A stretch of DNA of 13,130 nucleotides, from the NCBI GenBank assembly GCA_002686955.1, contig NYZA01000251.1, positions 1-13,130 on the forward strand. Reading direction: 5' to 3'. The translations under genes and the position numbers were made by a program. The DNA is from Gemmatimonadota bacterium. Lineage in GTDB: Bacteria > GCA-2686955. The notes under the pieces are model-generated. The model searched no databases and was not told the DNA's origin. It worked only from the letters and a program-made list of their open reading frames with translations. Below are positions 6,025-13,130 of the stretch, piece by piece (within the stretch, counting starts at the first letter, position 1; every line of letters begins with the position of its first letter).

Positions 6025-9000
6025 CTAACGCCCGCCGGGCGTCGGCTCGCCGCTCGGTTCCCAAGTAGGCTGACCCGCCGGCACGCGCGCCAGACTCCAA
6101 TCGGTCTCCTGATAGCCGAACACAATCCGATCCACCACCAACGGATCCGATTCCGGACCGCGAATCAGCGCCACCTCCTCCCCCCCGCGCGCCAACCTGA
6201 ACGGTCCGTGAAGCTCCCCCTGCTCCGTGTCACCGTCGAGCCAGAGTAGCAACACTTCGCCTGGAGCCAGGGTGCGCACCGGGAGCGTCCAGCGCAGAGG
6301 TTCTCCCCCCCAATCGTCGCTCAAGTAGAGACCGGCGGTCGAAAGCGGGCCTGTGGTCGGATTGAAGATCTCCACCCAATCGTCGTACTCCCCCATCTCG
6401 TCGCTCACTACCGTCGCGTTCGAGGCGCAGAGCTCGTTGATCACGAGTGTTTCCGGCGAGCCGGTGTCGACATAGATCGAAACCGACTCGCGGGCGACTC
6501 GATCGTCTCTCTCGAACGCGCTCAGGATCAGATCGTAGCGTCCGCCCCCGATCCACCAAGCGTCGGAGGGGATCGGAATGTCGATCTCCTTCTCGATCCG
6601 TTCTCCGCGCCGCAGCGACCCCAGCTCCACATCGATCACGAAGGGCACAGGCAGCCACACACCGCCCGCGCCCGTCGCCTCGATTCTCAACATTGTGTTG
6701 ATCTCCTGGCGCCATGTCGCCCTCACCGTCAGGCTGAGCTCGATCGTCTCGCCAGGCGCGACATATCGATCGTCGACCGAGACTTCCATAGCCACGGTTG
6801 GATCCCACAGGTTCTCGCCACCCGGCGTGGGCGCCCGAAGCACCCGCATCCTCCCCGCTCCGTCCGGATAGCGACCAACCACGGCTTGCGGCGAATATGC
6901 CCCCAGATGCACCTCGTCGATAACCCCGACGTTTTCCGGCGCGACCAGGAACAGCCAGCCCTCCTGCCGCCCCGGCAGCCCAACGGTGGCGCGTTCCCCC
7001 TCCGACAAAACCGTCGCCGGAACCGGCCACCGGTACAGATCGTCGGGGTCGTCGCTCAGGTACACACCCTCGAGATCCAGCGGCTCTGCGCCACGATGGT
7101 GAAGCTCCACGATCGTGCTACCTGGTCGCGCGATCTCGTTCAGCGCCAAATCGACCCACCGATTAGGCATCAGCGAGGCGACCGATGCTCGAAGTGTCGT
7201 TTCCCGCCCCGCCAAAATCTGTCTCATCTCTTCCGTCTGCCACCGGTACAGCTCCGCCGATTCACGCACCATCTTTTCGGTATCGAGAAAACCGTCCTCA
7301 ACGATCAAATCGGCTAGCGAATCGAGCACAGCCGCGGTTCGTTCGGTGGCGAGCGGCCCATCGAGCAGCATCTCGAGTCGTCGCAGGTAGCGACGCCGGA
7401 GCGAGCGCGGTTCCAAGAGCCGATCGGCCAGCGCGTTGTATTCCCCGCGAGCGTCCGGCGCCGCCGCGGTCGTGAAATCGGCGGGCGTACCATGTTCGTA
7501 GAGCAACCCCTCGACGTCCCAGGGCAACACTCGCCACTTCCCCCCCAGCCGATCTCGGTGCAGAATCTGGTTGCGCATCGCAAAATCGTTGTTCCCAAGA
7601 AACACCTGTAGTGCGTACCAGTCGATCACGGTGTCGATGTCGAAAGTGGCTCTCAGCCAGATCTCCAGATCCGGTCCCTGGAGTCGGTCCAGATTCTGGA
7701 CCAGATCGACTACATCGCGGCGAATCCAATCCTCGGTCTGTGTGTTCTGAAAGCTCTCGATATATGCGCTTTCGTCCACCAGAGGGAAAAGACCCGCCTC
7801 CACCTTGTAGGATCGCCCGTTCGGGTCGAGCCCGATCCGCGCCAGGAAAACTGCGTCGGGCTCCTCGACATGCTCAAAGACACCGAGAAGTGTGCCGTTC
7901 AGAGAGAGCGATAGCGGATCGACGCGATAGGCATCGATGCCGCAATCGCGCATCAACCGGTGGGCCAATGGCTCCCGCAGCAAGGCGGCATCATTGAAAT
8001 TCGCCGTCATATTGACAACGGCGGAACCACGCACCGGCTCCCCCCCCTCGATCCTCATCTTCCACGACTTCTTGGGTTGTCGCAGGCTTCCGGTCCCGCG
8101 GAATTGCAGGTCCCCGAAGCGCGCCAAAGCGTCGATCACGAGCATAGCGCTCCGATCGATCTTCGCCGGCAGCGCTCGCTCCATCGAGCGCAGATCATCC
8201 TCGTCGATCCACAGCTCCCACCTCGAAAGTGGCCCCGGGTCACGTGGCGCGCTCCCCCCCACCCGAGCAACATCACCCGGATACCCGCCCGCGTCGAGTG
8301 CTCGCACGCGGTAGCTCAACCCCGGATCGGCCGGCAGGCGGATCCACGGCAGGTAACGAATCGTCGAAGACACACTCTCCAACGAGGGGGAAAAAAACCG
8401 TCCCCGCCTCGACGTCCAGACCTCGTATCGATCGAGCCCGACCGGCCCGGCCGGCCGCCAGGTAAAGAGAACATCGTCGTCTCCGGGGTAAACCTCCAGG
8501 TCGATCGGAGCCTCGAGCGGCGGTGGAACGCCGGCGGAAAGCGATCTCAGCGCAATCGCCGATACTCTGGGCGGCAATAACGACGCTTCGTGCGCCGCGA
8601 ACGAAATCTCGATCGAATCTACGTCCGCGAACACTTCTCGTCGAATATTCAGCGCACGCTCCTTCCCGACCAAGGCATGGATATCGAGATCGTCCAGCAA
8701 AGTGTCGCGATCGACCGAAACCACCATTCGACGGATCCCCGGTCCGTCCGCCTCGGTTTCATTGAAGCGCATGGTCAGCTCGAAAGGCCCCGGTTCGACC
8801 GAAAAGCGCCACAGATGCGATCCCTCGCGAAAAACGCCGTAGAGAGGGCCATCGCCTTCCTCTCCATCGACGAAGAAGGTCCTGCTGACGTCGGCGACCG
8901 CCTCCCCCCCGACAAACCCCCCGTCGGCGCCAGTCCGCCAACCCGTCTCGCCTCGATACTCGATCCCGTCCGACGCAACGAGAGAGCTACTCTCTCCGGC

Positions 9001-9093
9001 GTTGAAGCCGATCGTGTCCCCCGCGGCCGTCATGCCGGCGACGGCGGCGGCGGCGGTGAGCGCGGATCGAATCGGCTGTGTCGCGAATCCCAT
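6025..9093 (-). CDS. Large secreted CotH kinase-like protein with malectin-like, FnIII-like and lamin-tail domains
   Basis: The 1022-residue product starts with a signal peptide (residues 1-24, ALTAAAAVAGMTAAG). A malectin-like carbohydrate-binding domain follows (about 26-185: IGFNAGES, GFVGGEA, PFELTMRFNETEA), then an FnIII-like domain (about 195-280). The CotH domain spans about 290-630, with FRGTGSLRQPKKSWKMRIEG (lysines 341-342), LSLNGTLLGVFEHVEEPD, DWYALQVFLGNNDFAMRNQI (N501, N502, D503) and KWRVLPWDVEGL (W525, D526). CotH proteins of the spore coat are atypical protein kinases; the same domain is common in secreted proteins of unknown role. Residues about 645-760 form a degenerate lamin-tail domain, 765-880 a beta-sandwich, and 882-1022 a clear lamin-tail domain (LVINELCASN, DDWVEIFNPT, GLYLSDD). 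It ends at PTPGGR with no sorting signal. The ribosome site is weak (GAG). It is alone in its strand block. Confidence 0.92.
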   Translation of the reverse strand: MGFATQPIRSALTAAAAVAGMTAAGDTIGFNAGESSSLVASDGIEYRGETGWRTGADGGFVGGEAVADVSRTFFVDGEEGDGPLYGVFREGSHLWRFSVEPGPFELTMRFNETEADGPGIRRMVVSVDRDTLLDDLDIHALVGKERALNIRREVFADVDSIEISFAAHEASLLPPRVSAIALRSLSAGVPPPLEAPIDLEVYPGDDDVLFTWRPAGPVGLDRYEVWTSRRGRFFSPSLESVSSTIRYLPWIRLPADPGLSYRVRALDAGGYPGDVARVGGSAPRDPGPLSRWELWIDEDDLRSMERALPAKIDRSAMLVIDALARFGDLQFRGTGSLRQPKKSWKMRIEGGEPVRGSAVVNMTANFNDAALLREPLAHRLMRDCGIDAYRVDPLSLSLNGTLLGVFEHVEEPDAVFLARIGLDPNGRSYKVEAGLFPLVDESAYIESFQNTQTEDWIRRDVVDLVQNLDRLQGPDLEIWLRATFDIDTVIDWYALQVFLGNNDFAMRNQILHRDRLGGKWRVLPWDVEGLLYEHGTPADFTTAAAPDARGEYNALADRLLEPRSLRRRYLRRLEMLLDGPLATERTAAVLDSLADLIVEDGFLDTEKMVRESAELYRWQTEEMRQILAGRETTLRASVASLMPNRWVDLALNEIARPGSTIVELHHRGAEPLDLEGVYLSDDPDDLYRWPVPATVLSEGERATVGLPGRQEGWLFLVAPENVGVIDEVHLGAYSPQAVVGRYPDGAGRMRVLRAPTPGGENLWDPTVAMEVSVDDRYVAPGETIELSLTVRATWRQEINTMLRIEATGAGGVWLPVPFVIDVELGSLRRGERIEKEIDIPIPSDAWWIGGGRYDLILSAFERDDRVARESVSIYVDTGSPETLVINELCASNATVVSDEMGEYDDWVEIFNPTTGPLSTAGLYLSDDWGGEPLRWTLPVRTLAPGEVLLLWLDGDTEQGELHGPFRLARGGEEVALIRGPESDPLVVDRIVFGYQETDWSLARVPAGQPTWEPSGEPTPGGR

Positions 9094-9296
9094 GTCTCAA
9101 GGATAGCCCGAATTGGCAGTGGGCTTGGCGTGGTCAGGAGAATGGGGAGGCGATACGCGATTTCGAAGTACCACCCTCGGGTGCGACGCAATCTCCAACG
9201 GCCGTCACCCACGAAGACACGTAGCGCCCGGGTCTTTGAACGCGTTCGCCGGGGCTGGCCGCGCGTGTCGATGCGGCTCCGCATCCTCGCGCATCA
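9094..9296. other. Gene-free upstream region of the CotH gene
   Basis: About 200 bp without a convincing gene or promoter. One small palindrome, GATGCGGCTCCGCATC (9270-9285), is present. Confidence 0.4.
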
Positions 9297-9475
9297 GGGT
9301 CCGCGCAAGAATGACTAGTCATCTTGGCGCCCGGATGTGCCGCGGATCTGGCCGATCGGTGAGCTCCGAAACCGGAGGAGTAGCAGCGCTGCTTCGAGGC
9401 TTTCGAGGCTCGCCGATCGGACTGAGATGAGGTGCAGATGGGATGCCAAATGACAAACCATTCTTGCGCGAGCCC
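9297..9475. repeat. 179-bp palindromic MITE-like repeat, copy 1, abutting the thrS stop codon
   Basis: Terminal inverted repeats GGGTCCGCGCAAGAATG (9297-9313) and CATTCTTGCGCGAGCCC (9459-9475) match at 15 of 17 positions, and the similarity of the arms continues inward (GTCATCTTGGC / GTCATTTGGC). The centre is a second long hairpin: CGATCGGTGAGC...CCGAAA pairs with TTTCGAGGCTCGCCGATCG, capped by GAGTAGC AGC GCTGCTTC. The whole unit folds as one long stem. A second copy (13011 onward) shares the left half at high identity. The right end stops exactly at the base before the thrS stop triplet, so the element may also act as the transcript end of thrS. No transposase is encoded. Confidence 0.8.
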
Positions 9476-11470
9476 TCAATCCCCCGACTTCGACCTCACC
9501 GCGTCGAGCACCAGCTCGATCGCTTCGCCGACCGGTTTCGCGCCCAGATCCCGCCGGCCGCGCCTGCGTACCGAGGCTTCGTCGCTCGCCGCCTCTCGTT
9601 CGCCGATGACGAACATGAAGGGCACCTTGGCCTTTTCCGATTCGCGGATCTTGAGCCCGATCTTCTCGTTGCGCCCGTCGAGGCGCACGCGCAGCCCGGC
9701 TTCCATGCAGCGGCGGCGAACCTGCTCGGCGTACTCCGCGGCCGCATCGGTGATCGACAGAACCGCCACCTGCTCCGGCGCGAGCCAGGTCGGGAACGCA
9801 CCGGCGACATGCTCGATCAGCACGCCGTAGAAGCGCTCGATCGAGCCGAATACCGCGCGGTGGAGCATCACCGGGCGCTGAGATGCGCTGGTCCGGTCCA
9901 CATACGATAGATCGAAACGCTCCGGCAGGTTGAAGTCGGCCTGGATCGTGCCAAGCTGCCAGGAGCGTCCGATCGCGTCGTTCAGATGGAACTCTATCTT
10001 CGGTCCGTAGAAAACCCCTTCGCCTTCGGCGATTCCGTAAGGCAGCCCCTGACTCTTCGTCGCCTCTTCGAGAGCGCCTTCGGCGGTGTCCCAAACTTCG
10101 TCGCTGCCCAGCCGCTCCTCGGGGCGCGTGGCGATCTTGATCCGAACGTCGCTGAAGCCGAAATCTCGGTACACTTCGTTTACGAGATCGAGAAAACCGG
10201 AGATCTCGGATTGGATCTGATCGAGTCCACAGAAAATATGTGCATCATCCTGGGAGAAGCTGCGAACGCGCGCCAGGCCGTGCATCACACCGCTGCGCTC
10301 ATACCGATGCAGCCTTCCGAAGTCGGCGATCCGCATCGGCAGATCGCGATAGCTGCGACGGGTCATACCGAAGAGAAGGGCGTGACCCGGACAGTTCATC
10401 GGCTTGACGCCGTAACGGATGGCGTCGCCGAGATGTCCGGACGAGCCGTCCTGCTCGGCACGGTCCCGCGCCCGATCGAGATCGACCTGCGATCCGCTGA
10501 AAAACATGTCTTCGGCGTAGTGCGGCAGATGTCCCGACGTATGGAAGAGCGAGGCATCGAAAATCTGTGGCGTGATCACCTCGTCGTAGCCGTAGCGATC
10601 GTACAGCTCACGAATGTAGTCGATGAGCAGGTTGTAGATGCGGGCACCCTTCGGAAGGAAGAAGGGCGATCCCGGCGCGATCGGGTGGGTCACGAAAAGG
10701 CCCAGCTCCTTGCCCAGCTTGCGATGGTCCCGCTTCTTCGCCTCTTCGATCCGGTGCAGATGGGCGTCGAGATCGGCCTTCTTCTCGTAGGCGGTTCCGT
10801 AGATCCTCGTGAGCATCGGGCGGCTCTCGTCGCCACGCCAATACGCGCCCGAAACCGACAATAGTTTGAAATGCTTGATCGCGCCGGTGGAGGGCACGTG
10901 AGGTCCCCGGCAGAGATCCTCGAACTCCCCCTGGCGGTAGATCGAGGGGTCGCCCCGCCCGACGACGCTCTCGATGATCTCGACCTTCAGATCCTGCCCC
11001 GATTCGGCGAAGAAAGCGATCGCCTCGTCGCGGCTCGGCAGACGCTTTTCGACCGCCAGATTCTCCTGGACGATCCGCCGCATCTCTTTCTCGATCTTTG
11101 GAAGGTCCTCCGCCGAGATCGCCTCGTCGAGACCGATGTCGTAGTAGAAGCCGTCTTCGATCGTCGGACCGATCCCCAGGCGCGCGCTCGGATGGAGGCG
11201 CATGACGGCCTGGGCCATGATGTGCGCGCAGGAGTGCCAGACGATTTCACGCCCTTCGGGATCGTCGAAGGTCAGTACACGAGCTTCGGAGCCGTCGGCG
11301 AGCGGAGCGGCGAGATCGCGTGCTTCACCGTCCACGCAGAGAGCGATCGCGCGTTTTCGGAGCTTGTTGCCCAAGCCCGCTACGAGATCATGCCCGGTCG
11401 CGCCCGTCTCGAACGATCTCTCCGATCGGTCGGGAAGGAAGACCTTCAGCTCGTCGGTTCTCGCGGACAT
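9476..11470 (-). CDS. thrS: Threonyl-tRNA synthetase
   Basis: ThrRS attaches threonine to tRNA-Thr and edits Ser-tRNA-Thr. At 664 residues it is slightly longer than usual. Domains: TGS (1-67), editing domain with HSCAH (H79, H83) and CRGPH (C187, H191), class II core (about 255-555), and anticodon-binding domain (about 565-660: NEKIGLKIRE). The catalytic zinc ligands are present: C360 (MNCPGH), H411 (DDAHIF), H537 (MLHRAV). Motif 2 reads RLHRYERSG, as in many non-enterobacterial ThrRS. A hydrophilic insert of about 20-25 residues (about 326-350) separates EDMFF from YGVKPMNC. The start ATG at 11470 has GGGAG 7-8 nt upstream. It lies 58 nt after tRNA-Val and probably shares its promoter, with a terminator-like hairpin between. 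infC, often its direct neighbour, is about 7 kb away. Confidence 0.98.
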   Translation of the reverse strand: MSARTDELKVFLPDRSERSFETGATGHDLVAGLGNKLRKRAIALCVDGEARDLAAPLADGSEARVLTFDDPEGREIVWHSCAHIMAQAVMRLHPSARLGIGPTIEDGFYYDIGLDEAISAEDLPKIEKEMRRIVQENLAVEKRLPSRDEAIAFFAESGQDLKVEIIESVVGRGDPSIYRQGEFEDLCRGPHVPSTGAIKHFKLLSVSGAYWRGDESRPMLTRIYGTAYEKKADLDAHLHRIEEAKKRDHRKLGKELGLFVTHPIAPGSPFFLPKGARIYNLLIDYIRELYDRYGYDEVITPQIFDASLFHTSGHLPHYAEDMFFSGSQVDLDRARDRAEQDGSSGHLGDAIRYGVKPMNCPGHALLFGMTRRSYRDLPMRIADFGRLHRYERSGVMHGLARVRSFSQDDAHIFCGLDQIQSEISGFLDLVNEVYRDFGFSDVRIKIATRPEERLGSDEVWDTAEGALEEATKSQGLPYGIAEGEGVFYGPKIEFHLNDAIGRSWQLGTIQADFNLPERFDLSYVDRTSASQRPVMLHRAVFGSIERFYGVLIEHVAGAFPTWLAPEQVAVLSITDAAAEYAEQVRRRCMEAGLRVRLDGRNEKIGLKIRESEKAKVPFMFVIGEREAASDEASVRRRGRRDLGAKPVGEAIELVLDAVRSKSGD

Positions 11471-11745: not shown

Positions 11746-11764
11746 GATTTGGGGCGACGGACAT

Positions 11765-11897
11765 GGCGTTTCGATATAGGCGTGAGATCCTCGGGAGGAC
11801 TGCGCACCGGCGGGCGGAGAGCCGTCGTTCCTGGCCAGGCCAGCCCAGCGGCTCCTCTCGGGGCGGACTTCCCGCCCTGCGTGCCCGCGAGGCGACA
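11765..11897. repeat. Diverged direct repeat, copy A (133 bp)
   Basis: It aligns without gaps to 12035-12167, beginning GGCGTTTCGATATAGGCGTG here and GACGCTTCGACATAGCGCTG there. Both then share GAGATC, a GGAGGxCxGCG block, CGTCxTTC and CCCGCCCTG. Identity is roughly two thirds by eye. No coding signal. Confidence 0.65.
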
Positions 11898-12034
11898 CTG
11901 GTCAGCGCGCCCCTCTCTGCCTCGGGTCCCGACCTCCACGTCCGCGGCAAGCTCGCGCGAGTGATGGCTGAGCGACCTCGCGGATCGATGCGATGTGCTG
12001 GCGACGCCTTAAGTCGCTATGCGGTAACGAGACT

Positions 12035-12167
12035 GACGCTTCGACATAGCGCTGAGATCGCCGGAGGGACCGCGTGCCAGCCGGAGGGCGACCGTCCTTC
12101 GCCGCCGGGCATGCCCGGTGGCTCCGCTCCAAGCGAACATCCCGCCCTGAGCGCCCGCAGCGCCACA
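12035..12167. repeat. Diverged direct repeat, copy B (133 bp)
   Basis: Partner of copy A, same orientation, 270 bp further on. Weak similarity seems to continue about 25 nt past it, up to the start of the TGAACTTGACAC element, suggesting that element landed in or beside the repeat. Confidence 0.65.
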
Positions 12168-12202
12168 ACCCGCCGGTGATCGCGCCGGTTCTCGCACGGA
12201 GT

Positions 12203-12375
12203 GGGGGGTGAACTTGACACCTGGTACGCGGAGATGGGGGTCAAATCGACAACGTGGGCCGAGAGACCGCCAGATCGGCCTTGGAGCACTGCTTTCACCG
12301 GTCTTGGCCCCCCTTGCAGTTGGTATCTGTCAACTTCACCCCTCACTGTGCGCGTGGAGTGTCAAGTTCAACCCC
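12203..12375. mobile_element. Small element with inverted, internally repeated ends (IS-end remnant or MITE)
   Basis: GGGGGGTGAACTTGACAC (12203-12220) and GTGTCAAGTTCAACCCC (12359-12375) are nearly perfect inverted ends; from TG (12209) to CA (12370) the unit is 162 bp. Each end carries a second, weaker copy of the same motif about 31 nt further in (GGGGGTCAAATCGACA at 12236; CTGTCAACTTCACCCC at 12328). TG...CA ends with several internal repeats are typical of IS21-family insertion sequences, but no transposase is present. It may be a non-autonomous derivative or two ends left by deletion. Confidence 0.6.
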
Positions 12376-12737
12376 AACTGTGCGCGGCGACTCGCTCATG
12401 ACCCGTAAGCGGGGAGGAAAGGTATCGGGTGAATCGAGGCCGGAGCCCCATGAGGAACGGAGTCGCGGAGCGGCATCCGCGCCTCGTGCCCTTCCCCGCG
12501 CCGACTGGGCCAAAGAGCTCGCGGTCTCCAACCCTCGCCTGGCAAACAGACCATCGCGTTCGGGCACGCGGAGCCGTTGGGCGGGCCTGGCTGAGAATGG
12601 CGGCTCCCGGCAAACCAATACTCAGTCATCCTCCTCCCTCTTCGTCCTTCCTCTCGATCGGGGCCCCTGATTCGAGACGCCGGCATGACTTCGGGTGGTT
12701 TGGCGCGGGTGAACCCAGGTGTTTCGACTGGTGTACC
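12376..12737. other. Gene-free stretch between two palindromic elements
   Basis: A 166-codon open frame crosses this region on the plus strand and others on the minus, but their composition is Arg/Ser/Pro-rich, they run through the inverted repeats, and they show no domain. I see nothing functional here. Confidence 0.5.
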
Positions 12738-12922: not shown

Positions 12923-13010
12923 AGTGTAGTCTCCTCATGCGGGTTTCTTGCTGTTCGAAAAGCGCCTCATCTCATATGGATGCAACAGACATCGGTTCGG
13001 CTTCACCTAA

Positions 13011-13130
13011 GGGTCCGCGCAAGAATAACTTGCTATTTTGGCGCCCAGATGTGCCGCAGATCTGGTCGATCGCCGATCTTCGAAACCGGAGGAATAGCAG
13101 AGCTATTTCGAGGATTTCGGAGGTCGGCGA
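13011..13130. repeat. MITE-like repeat, copy 2, cut by the window end
   Basis: It starts with the same GGGTCCGCGCAAGAAT as copy 1 at 9297, in the same orientation, and aligns along the visible 120 bp, including GGCGCCC, ATGTGCCGC, GAAACCGGAGGA and TTTCG. The inner hairpin is kept: CGCCGATCTTCGAAA pairs with TTTCGGAGGTCGGCG over 15 bp with two wobble pairs, and GAATAGC pairs with GCTATTTC around AGA. The right terminal repeat would lie beyond the window. Confidence 0.8.

Follow-up and report, generated by a model that had tools for sequence, protein, structure and literature searches.

The window, the whole 13,130-nt stretch of DNA analysed here (contig C251), belongs to a draft MAG of 4.28 Mb in 270 contigs, 84.5% complete, in which mis-assembly of repeats is possible. 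A 179-bp palindrome lies at 9297–9475, exactly where the original prediction had placed it, with the triplet TCA on both sides, and a second copy runs into the contig end. The features of the locus are as follows.

6025–9093, − strand: large ORF of 1022 aa, putative CotH/lamin-tail-domain protein, on the other flank of copy 1 from thrS
9294–9296, no strand: left 3-bp target duplication, TCA, flanking copy 1
9297–9475, + strand (canonical orientation): element copy 1, 179 bp
9297–9322, + strand: left inverted end, columns 1–26, GGGTCCGCGCAAGAATGACTAGTCAT
9327–9332, + strand: GCGCCC, 5' side of a helix that is present in the G060 family too
9334–9335, + strand: 5' side of a tandem G.A mismatch, partner 9437–9438, columns 38–39/141–142
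9345–9346, + strand: 5' side of a tandem G.A mismatch, partner 9426–9427, columns 49–50/130–131
9349–9423, + strand: core hairpin, columns 53–127, with a strong bias of G-U over A-C
9375–9376, + strand: 5' side of a tandem G.A mismatch, partner 9396–9397, columns 79–80/100–101
9440–9446, + strand: GGGATGC, 3' side of the GCGCCC helix, in which one A is bulged and one pair is G.U
9450–9475, + strand: right inverted end, columns 154–179
9476–9478, no strand: right target duplication, TCA, doubling as the thrS stop codon (TGA on the − strand)
9476–11470, − strand: putative thrS (threonyl-tRNA synthetase, named from its sequence), stop codon adjoining copy 1
13008–13010, no strand: TAA, left flank of copy 2 and one side of its target duplication, whose right side would lie past the contig end
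13011–13130, + strand: element copy 2, truncated at the contig end after 120 of its roughly 179 bases

Copy 1 folds with a predicted energy of −111.8 kcal/mol, against −68.4 in shuffled sequences (z = −9.9). The two copies are identical at 99 of 120 bases, and as copy 2 is cut at 13130 only 29 pairs can be assessed there. The paired changes listed in the original prediction are all present: a G-C pair is C-G in copy 2 (9359/9413 versus 13073/13127), another is A-T (9380/9392), T-G becomes T-A through G-U at two places (9365/9407 and 9381/9391), and G-C becomes T-G at 9363/9409. One further change was not listed, a non-pair C.A at 9366/9406 in copy 1 that is T-G in copy 2.

A search of the whole genome, which had been proposed as a check, showed that two copies was a large undercount. 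The terminus GGGTCCGCGCAAGAAT, with three mismatches or fewer, matched 220 times, against 22 matches for a reversed-pattern control, so the refuting condition set beforehand, a family of two copies only, does not hold. We mapped 91 copies or fragments and studied them within the sequence stretches surrounding them; the true number is larger, as copies are cut off at the ends of several contigs, and the family comprises about 100 elements in this genome. The element carries no gene, and its terminal inverted repeats of 16–26 bp start with GGGTYCGCGCAAGAAT (terminal pattern GGGTYCGCGC...). Among the 54 two-ended copies, 32 measure 176–180 bp and 12 measure 86–88 bp; the remainder are two each of 90, 98 and 40 bp, one of 105 bp, one of 151 bp and two doubtful end pairings of 233 and 237 bp. 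Flanking triplets are identical in 28 of these 54, where 10.3 would be expected with random flank pairing, and the matching triplets are mostly TNA (TAA, TTA, TCA, TGA), with matching non-TNA flanks (AAA/AAA, TTT/TTT, ATA/ATA and CAA pairs) present as well. Gene context could be classed for all but 32 of the 91 copies, which lie at contig or stretch ends: 34 copies sit between co-directional, 12 between convergent and 12 between divergent gene pairs and one overlaps a predicted gene, so almost all classed copies are intergenic. Short gene-less length, high copy number, inverted ends and a 3-bp target duplication are the marks of a MITE, and the suggestion of a MITE-like mobile hairpin is thus borne out.

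The 86–98 and 40 bp forms, which lack the core, still carry target duplications. The 86–88 bp copies seem, from their sequences, to be deletions at the short direct repeats AGATGTG and GCAGAT around the core, and these two recurrent deletion junctions suggest that some core-less copies arose in place. Elements inserted next to each other (L009/L039, L073, L074) have one TNA triplet in common (...GGACCC-TTA-GGGTCC...), which suggests that a copy can insert into the target triplet duplicated by its neighbour.

To examine the interior, we aligned 53 copies and paired their arms by a strand-neutral alignment in which G-U and A-C departures were scored equally. In a DNA palindrome neither should be commoner or more harmful than the other, since G.T on one strand reads as A.C on the opposite one. 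The observed departures are far from equal, with G-U:A-C at 190:7 in columns 27–52 and 261:66 in the core, and a non-significant 55:38 in the inverted ends. Counted at interior pairs whose commonest state is Watson-Crick and sorted by frequency, G-U:A-C is 15:14 among singletons, 8:6 among variants in two or three copies, and 10:0 among those in at least four, the ten shared G-U columns occurring in differing sets of copies. At further interior pairs G-U is the majority state in eight and A-C in one. Conserved mismatches follow the same strand, being purine-purine in seven cases and pyrimidine-pyrimidine in none, with six of the seven being G.A in tandem pairs. The plus strand is predicted to fold more stably in 38 of 38 copies, with a mean gap of −31 kcal/mol under RNA parameters.

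A second family shows the same asymmetry with a different interior. It lies in genome G060 (Acidobacteria bacterium isolate B71T1B8), where the terminus has 128 matches against 19 for the control, and its 157-bp element has ends as in the window element. The plus strand is again more stable (21/21 copies), G-U:A-C is 3:0 among fixed departures, 4:0 among variants in at least four copies and 11:21 among singletons, and mismatches are purine-purine in 12 cases against two, with three tandem G.A loops. The GCGCCC/GGGATGC helix, with its bulged A and G.U pair, is common to both families. When these are pooled, G-U:A-C is 38:44 for variants in three copies or fewer and 14:0 for those in at least four (Fisher p = 8e-5), a test that rests on 14 shared variants and 11 fixed ones from two families, and conserved mismatches are purine-purine in 19 cases and pyrimidine-pyrimidine in two. 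With DNA parameters the plus strand is likewise the more stable one throughout (38/38 and 21/21), by about −10 kcal/mol on average.

Since mutations arising after insertion are even while shared variants stand at 10:0, multiplying lineages must have kept the plus-strand fold. Private mutations of resident copies disrupt pairs symmetrically; the ability of one strand to fold, whether as RNA or as single-stranded DNA, was thus kept during spread and not detectably in resident copies. Simple strand-biased mutation was considered as the source of the G-U excess and is inadequate, because the bias is missing in singletons (15:14; 11:21) and not significant in the inverted ends. Thus the earlier proposal that a folded RNA or DNA hairpin is being kept holds for a strand-specific, RNA-like constraint on the interior, and fails for each resident copy taken singly. 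The covariation analysis it had called for gave a likewise divided answer. Summed across hairpin pairs, covariation reached 375.7, against 2.5 ± 26.7 under a tree-based null, and the Watson-Crick fraction was 0.738 against 0.593 ± 0.021, so that pairing is kept beyond what relatedness explains; in a pair-by-pair test (R-scape-like, tree null) no single base pair was significant, because copies share haplotypes.

Relatives with these ends occur in other bacteria. The terminus was present in five of 396 sampled Acidobacteriota genomes, with controls at zero, and among 386 genomes drawn as relatives of the window genome it occurred only in that genome itself and in G553. The G553 element matches the window family at 21 of 22 bases of its 3' part, AGATGTGGTGAAGATGGGATGC, and its plus strand is again the more stable; genes beside long single ends in G553, examined as partners, were ordinary genes. 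Two further genomes, G256 and G326, hold elements of 228–241 bp that have the ends in common and fold into branched shapes with a smaller strand difference. These shapes are cloverleaf-like and contain GATGCAAGGC...CAACGCCGCAGATG (L298-L306 in G256, L309-L311 in G326), and the middle of the G060 element has an AAGGC...AACGCC hairpin similar to that motif. A whole-element DNA search of 60 genomes yielded no relative, whereas the search with the 16-bp end did find relatives. No curated Rfam family matched any part of an element at E ≤ 5, and a literature search on the terminus found no relevant paper.

A transposase gene flanked by the same ends had also been proposed as something to look for, and a partial counterpart is present. 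The window genome has a two-ORF insertion sequence (IS) in which a helix-turn-helix (HTH) ORF precedes a 572-aa protein matching PF21804 (Transposase_29, E = 2.5e-190). Because Tn5 transposase is the best solved-structure match of its predicted model (pLDDT 84.6; E = 8.8e-8), this protein is, as judged from the model, a DDE (Tn5-like) transposase. IS copies and end fragments in this genome carry the outer ends GGGTYCGCGCAAGAATRACTTCAGACC common to the MITE, the IS ends reading GGGTYCGCGCAAGAATRACTTCAGACCTCCTGATC with the outer 20 bp shared, and in G060 one PF21804 IS end carries the 27-nt arm of the local MITE. However, PF21804 was sought and not found in four Acidobacteriota genomes with same-ended elements, so its role as mobilizer is unproven. 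PF21804 homologues examined in other genomes have only TCAGACCTCCTGATCTC as a conserved inverted repeat, which the MITE lacks; the absence of the TCAGACCTCC repeat, together with the four PF21804-free genomes, weakens PF21804 as sole mobilizer. The sequences are compatible with two roles for the IS, as the mobilizer or as a passenger that these ends carry. DDE_Tnp_1 (two matches) and DDE_Tnp_1_2 (none) were considered as an IS5-like partner and discarded, with no element ends nearby.

No assembled IS copy has both ends: contig C99 breaks off within the gene, and in contig C108 the right end is missing at a junction with the MITE interior. At that junction (L080:3140-3200) the IS passes at ...AGGTCTGAA directly into the MITE interior CTTGTCATTTGGCATCCC, which looks like a lost palindromic junction between the IS end and an adjacent MITE. 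The two ORFs of the IS, orfA and orfB, are in different frames and overlap within an A-rich run (L080:2480-2530, L070:1190-1220; GAAGAAAAACTGC; GAAAAAAAACTG), suggesting a possible programmed frameshift that would give an OrfAB fusion.

The nearest known kind of element is the ERIC-like/MITE repeat. ERIC of enterobacteria, a 127-bp imperfect palindrome, resembles the window family in being short and intergenic, with inverted ends and tens to hundreds of copies. Furthermore, in seven E. coli ERIC copies (L324-L330) one strand is the more stable in 7/7, by about 4 to 23 kcal/mol, and 5'-GA/GA-3' internal loops are present, so that a working definition of a one-strand-biased imperfect palindrome with G.A loops covers 38/38 copies of the window family, 21/21 in G060 and 7/7 of ERIC. 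The ends differ: those of ERIC are 7-bp inverted repeats with TA termini (PMC2229807), while those of the window family measure 16–26 bp, start with GGGTYCGCGCAAGAAT and are accompanied by a 3-bp TNA-like duplication. Local alignment gave no significant ERIC homology, with scores within or barely above those of shuffles; only the G060 core was slightly above (19.0 against a maximum of 18.0). MITEs in general, such as Correia/NEMIS and the Coxiella QMITEs, are likewise non-coding and intergenic, with inverted ends, target duplications and a stable predicted transcript fold (PMC10969869), but the reviews consulted do not describe selected strand-specific pairing with tandem G.A and fixed G-U. 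REP/BIME repeats with RAYT are also palindromic, intergenic and multi-copy, but measure 20–40 bp against 179 bp; they are marked by a GTAG/CGTC-type tag and by a Y1 transposase gene with flanking copies. The suggested REP/RAYT relation is not supported by the features compared, because the window element has long inverted ends and 3-bp target duplications and the IS sharing its ends belongs to a DDE, not a tyrosine, transposase family.

We consider it probable that the element is a MITE, moved by a DDE-type transposase, whose plus-strand hairpin was selected during multiplication. A plain MITE, that is, an internally deleted or end-sharing derivative of the PF21804 IS, whose palindrome is a by-product of arm-to-arm correction and which has no RNA or single-stranded DNA function, is unlikely. 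It would account for the outer ends that the IS copies and fragments share, and for arm blocks that change as wholes, with chimeric copies carrying unmatched arms (L008, L012, L024). Template switching creates and maintains hairpin pairing without selection (PMC8794818) and, acting across hairpins in replication, would by itself make the compensatory changes. It probably contributes to arm matching here, given the joint changes of arm blocks and the chimeric copies, but it cannot give the asymmetry because it is blind to strand. Strand-blind correction of arms cannot yield shared variants at 14:0, purine-purine mismatches at 19:2 or tandem G.A in two families, and the plain MITE is already strongly weakened by this strand asymmetry.

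Selection during spread and not in resident copies, and DNA energies that favour the plus strand throughout, would also fit a folded molecule of single-stranded DNA, extruded or transferred as a hairpin in transposition or replication, in which G.T and G.A are tolerated. Double-stranded DDE transposition is indicated instead by the ends, by the 3-bp duplications and by the Tn5-like transposase of the IS that has these ends in common, and RNA parameters give a gap between the strands about three times that obtained with DNA parameters. Single-stranded DNA transposases such as IS200/IS605/RAYT are not known to leave target duplications. We regard single-stranded DNA as quite unlikely, and RNA, which would be transcribed from the element, as the simpler candidate for the folded molecule. 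A role at the level of the host, with insertions retained as regulatory RNAs or terminators that end or stabilise neighbouring transcripts in the manner of REP/BIME, ERIC or Correia repeats, is very unlikely. ERIC and Correia RNA hairpins do influence mRNA decay (PMC2229807, PMC10969869), copies here are nearly all intergenic, and 15 directly adjoin a stop codon while none adjoins a start codon. However, TAA and TGA are TNA triplets, so this adjacency is roughly, by estimate, what random intergenic TNA insertion gives, and stop-codon targeting was rejected. Pair loss in resident copies is symmetric. Relative to the genes beside them, elements favour neither orientation (30 same and 38 opposite at gene 3' ends, 32 and 40 at 5' ends), hence there is no sign of a role in host mRNA, and the proposal of a structured RNA that ends transcripts is not supported.

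On the favoured reading, a non-autonomous inverted-repeat element would move as DNA through a DDE-type transposase that recognises its GGGTYCGCGCAAGAAT ends and duplicates a 3-bp target at insertion, movement that we infer from the ends and duplications. Its interior would be more than dead filler: one strand gives a long hairpin in which G-U pairs and tandem G.A mismatches occur, and selection would have kept this strand-specific fold during multiplication of the element. Most simply, a folded transcript would matter to the element itself or to tolerance of its insertions, by analogy with ERIC repeats, whose RNA is reported to alter mRNA stability in Yersinia in an orientation-dependent way (PMC2229807). 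It is conceivable, if doubtful, that there is a wider class of transposable elements, perhaps including ERIC, whose structured RNA module, with stacked tandem-G.A helices, is needed for their own propagation; the RNA would then be mobile in several phyla, carried along by transposition of the DNA.

Palindromes of MITEs are usually viewed as decaying DNA in which the hairpin is incidental. The strand-neutral frequency-spectrum test used here (G-U against A-C, shared against private) separates a DNA palindrome from a fold selected on a single strand, and its outcome agreed between two families whose interiors differ. As the seven E. coli ERIC copies share a strand preference in fold energy, the test could be extended to repeats such as ERIC, YPAL and Correia, and whether these are RNA elements would become directly testable. 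The ends common to distant genomes offer a handle for finding the mobilizer.

Two other repeats were noticed in the window. In a gene-poor region after a tRNA (11755–12180), two stretches, GCGTTTCGATATAGGCGTGAGATC... and ACGCTTCGACATAGCGCTGAGATC..., resemble diverged copies of one another by eye. Between 12200 and 12390, the motifs GTGTCAA(G/C)TTCAACCCC / TGTCAACTTCACCCC recur in both orientations, with a direct pair at 12328–12386, and are perhaps remnants of another mobile element.
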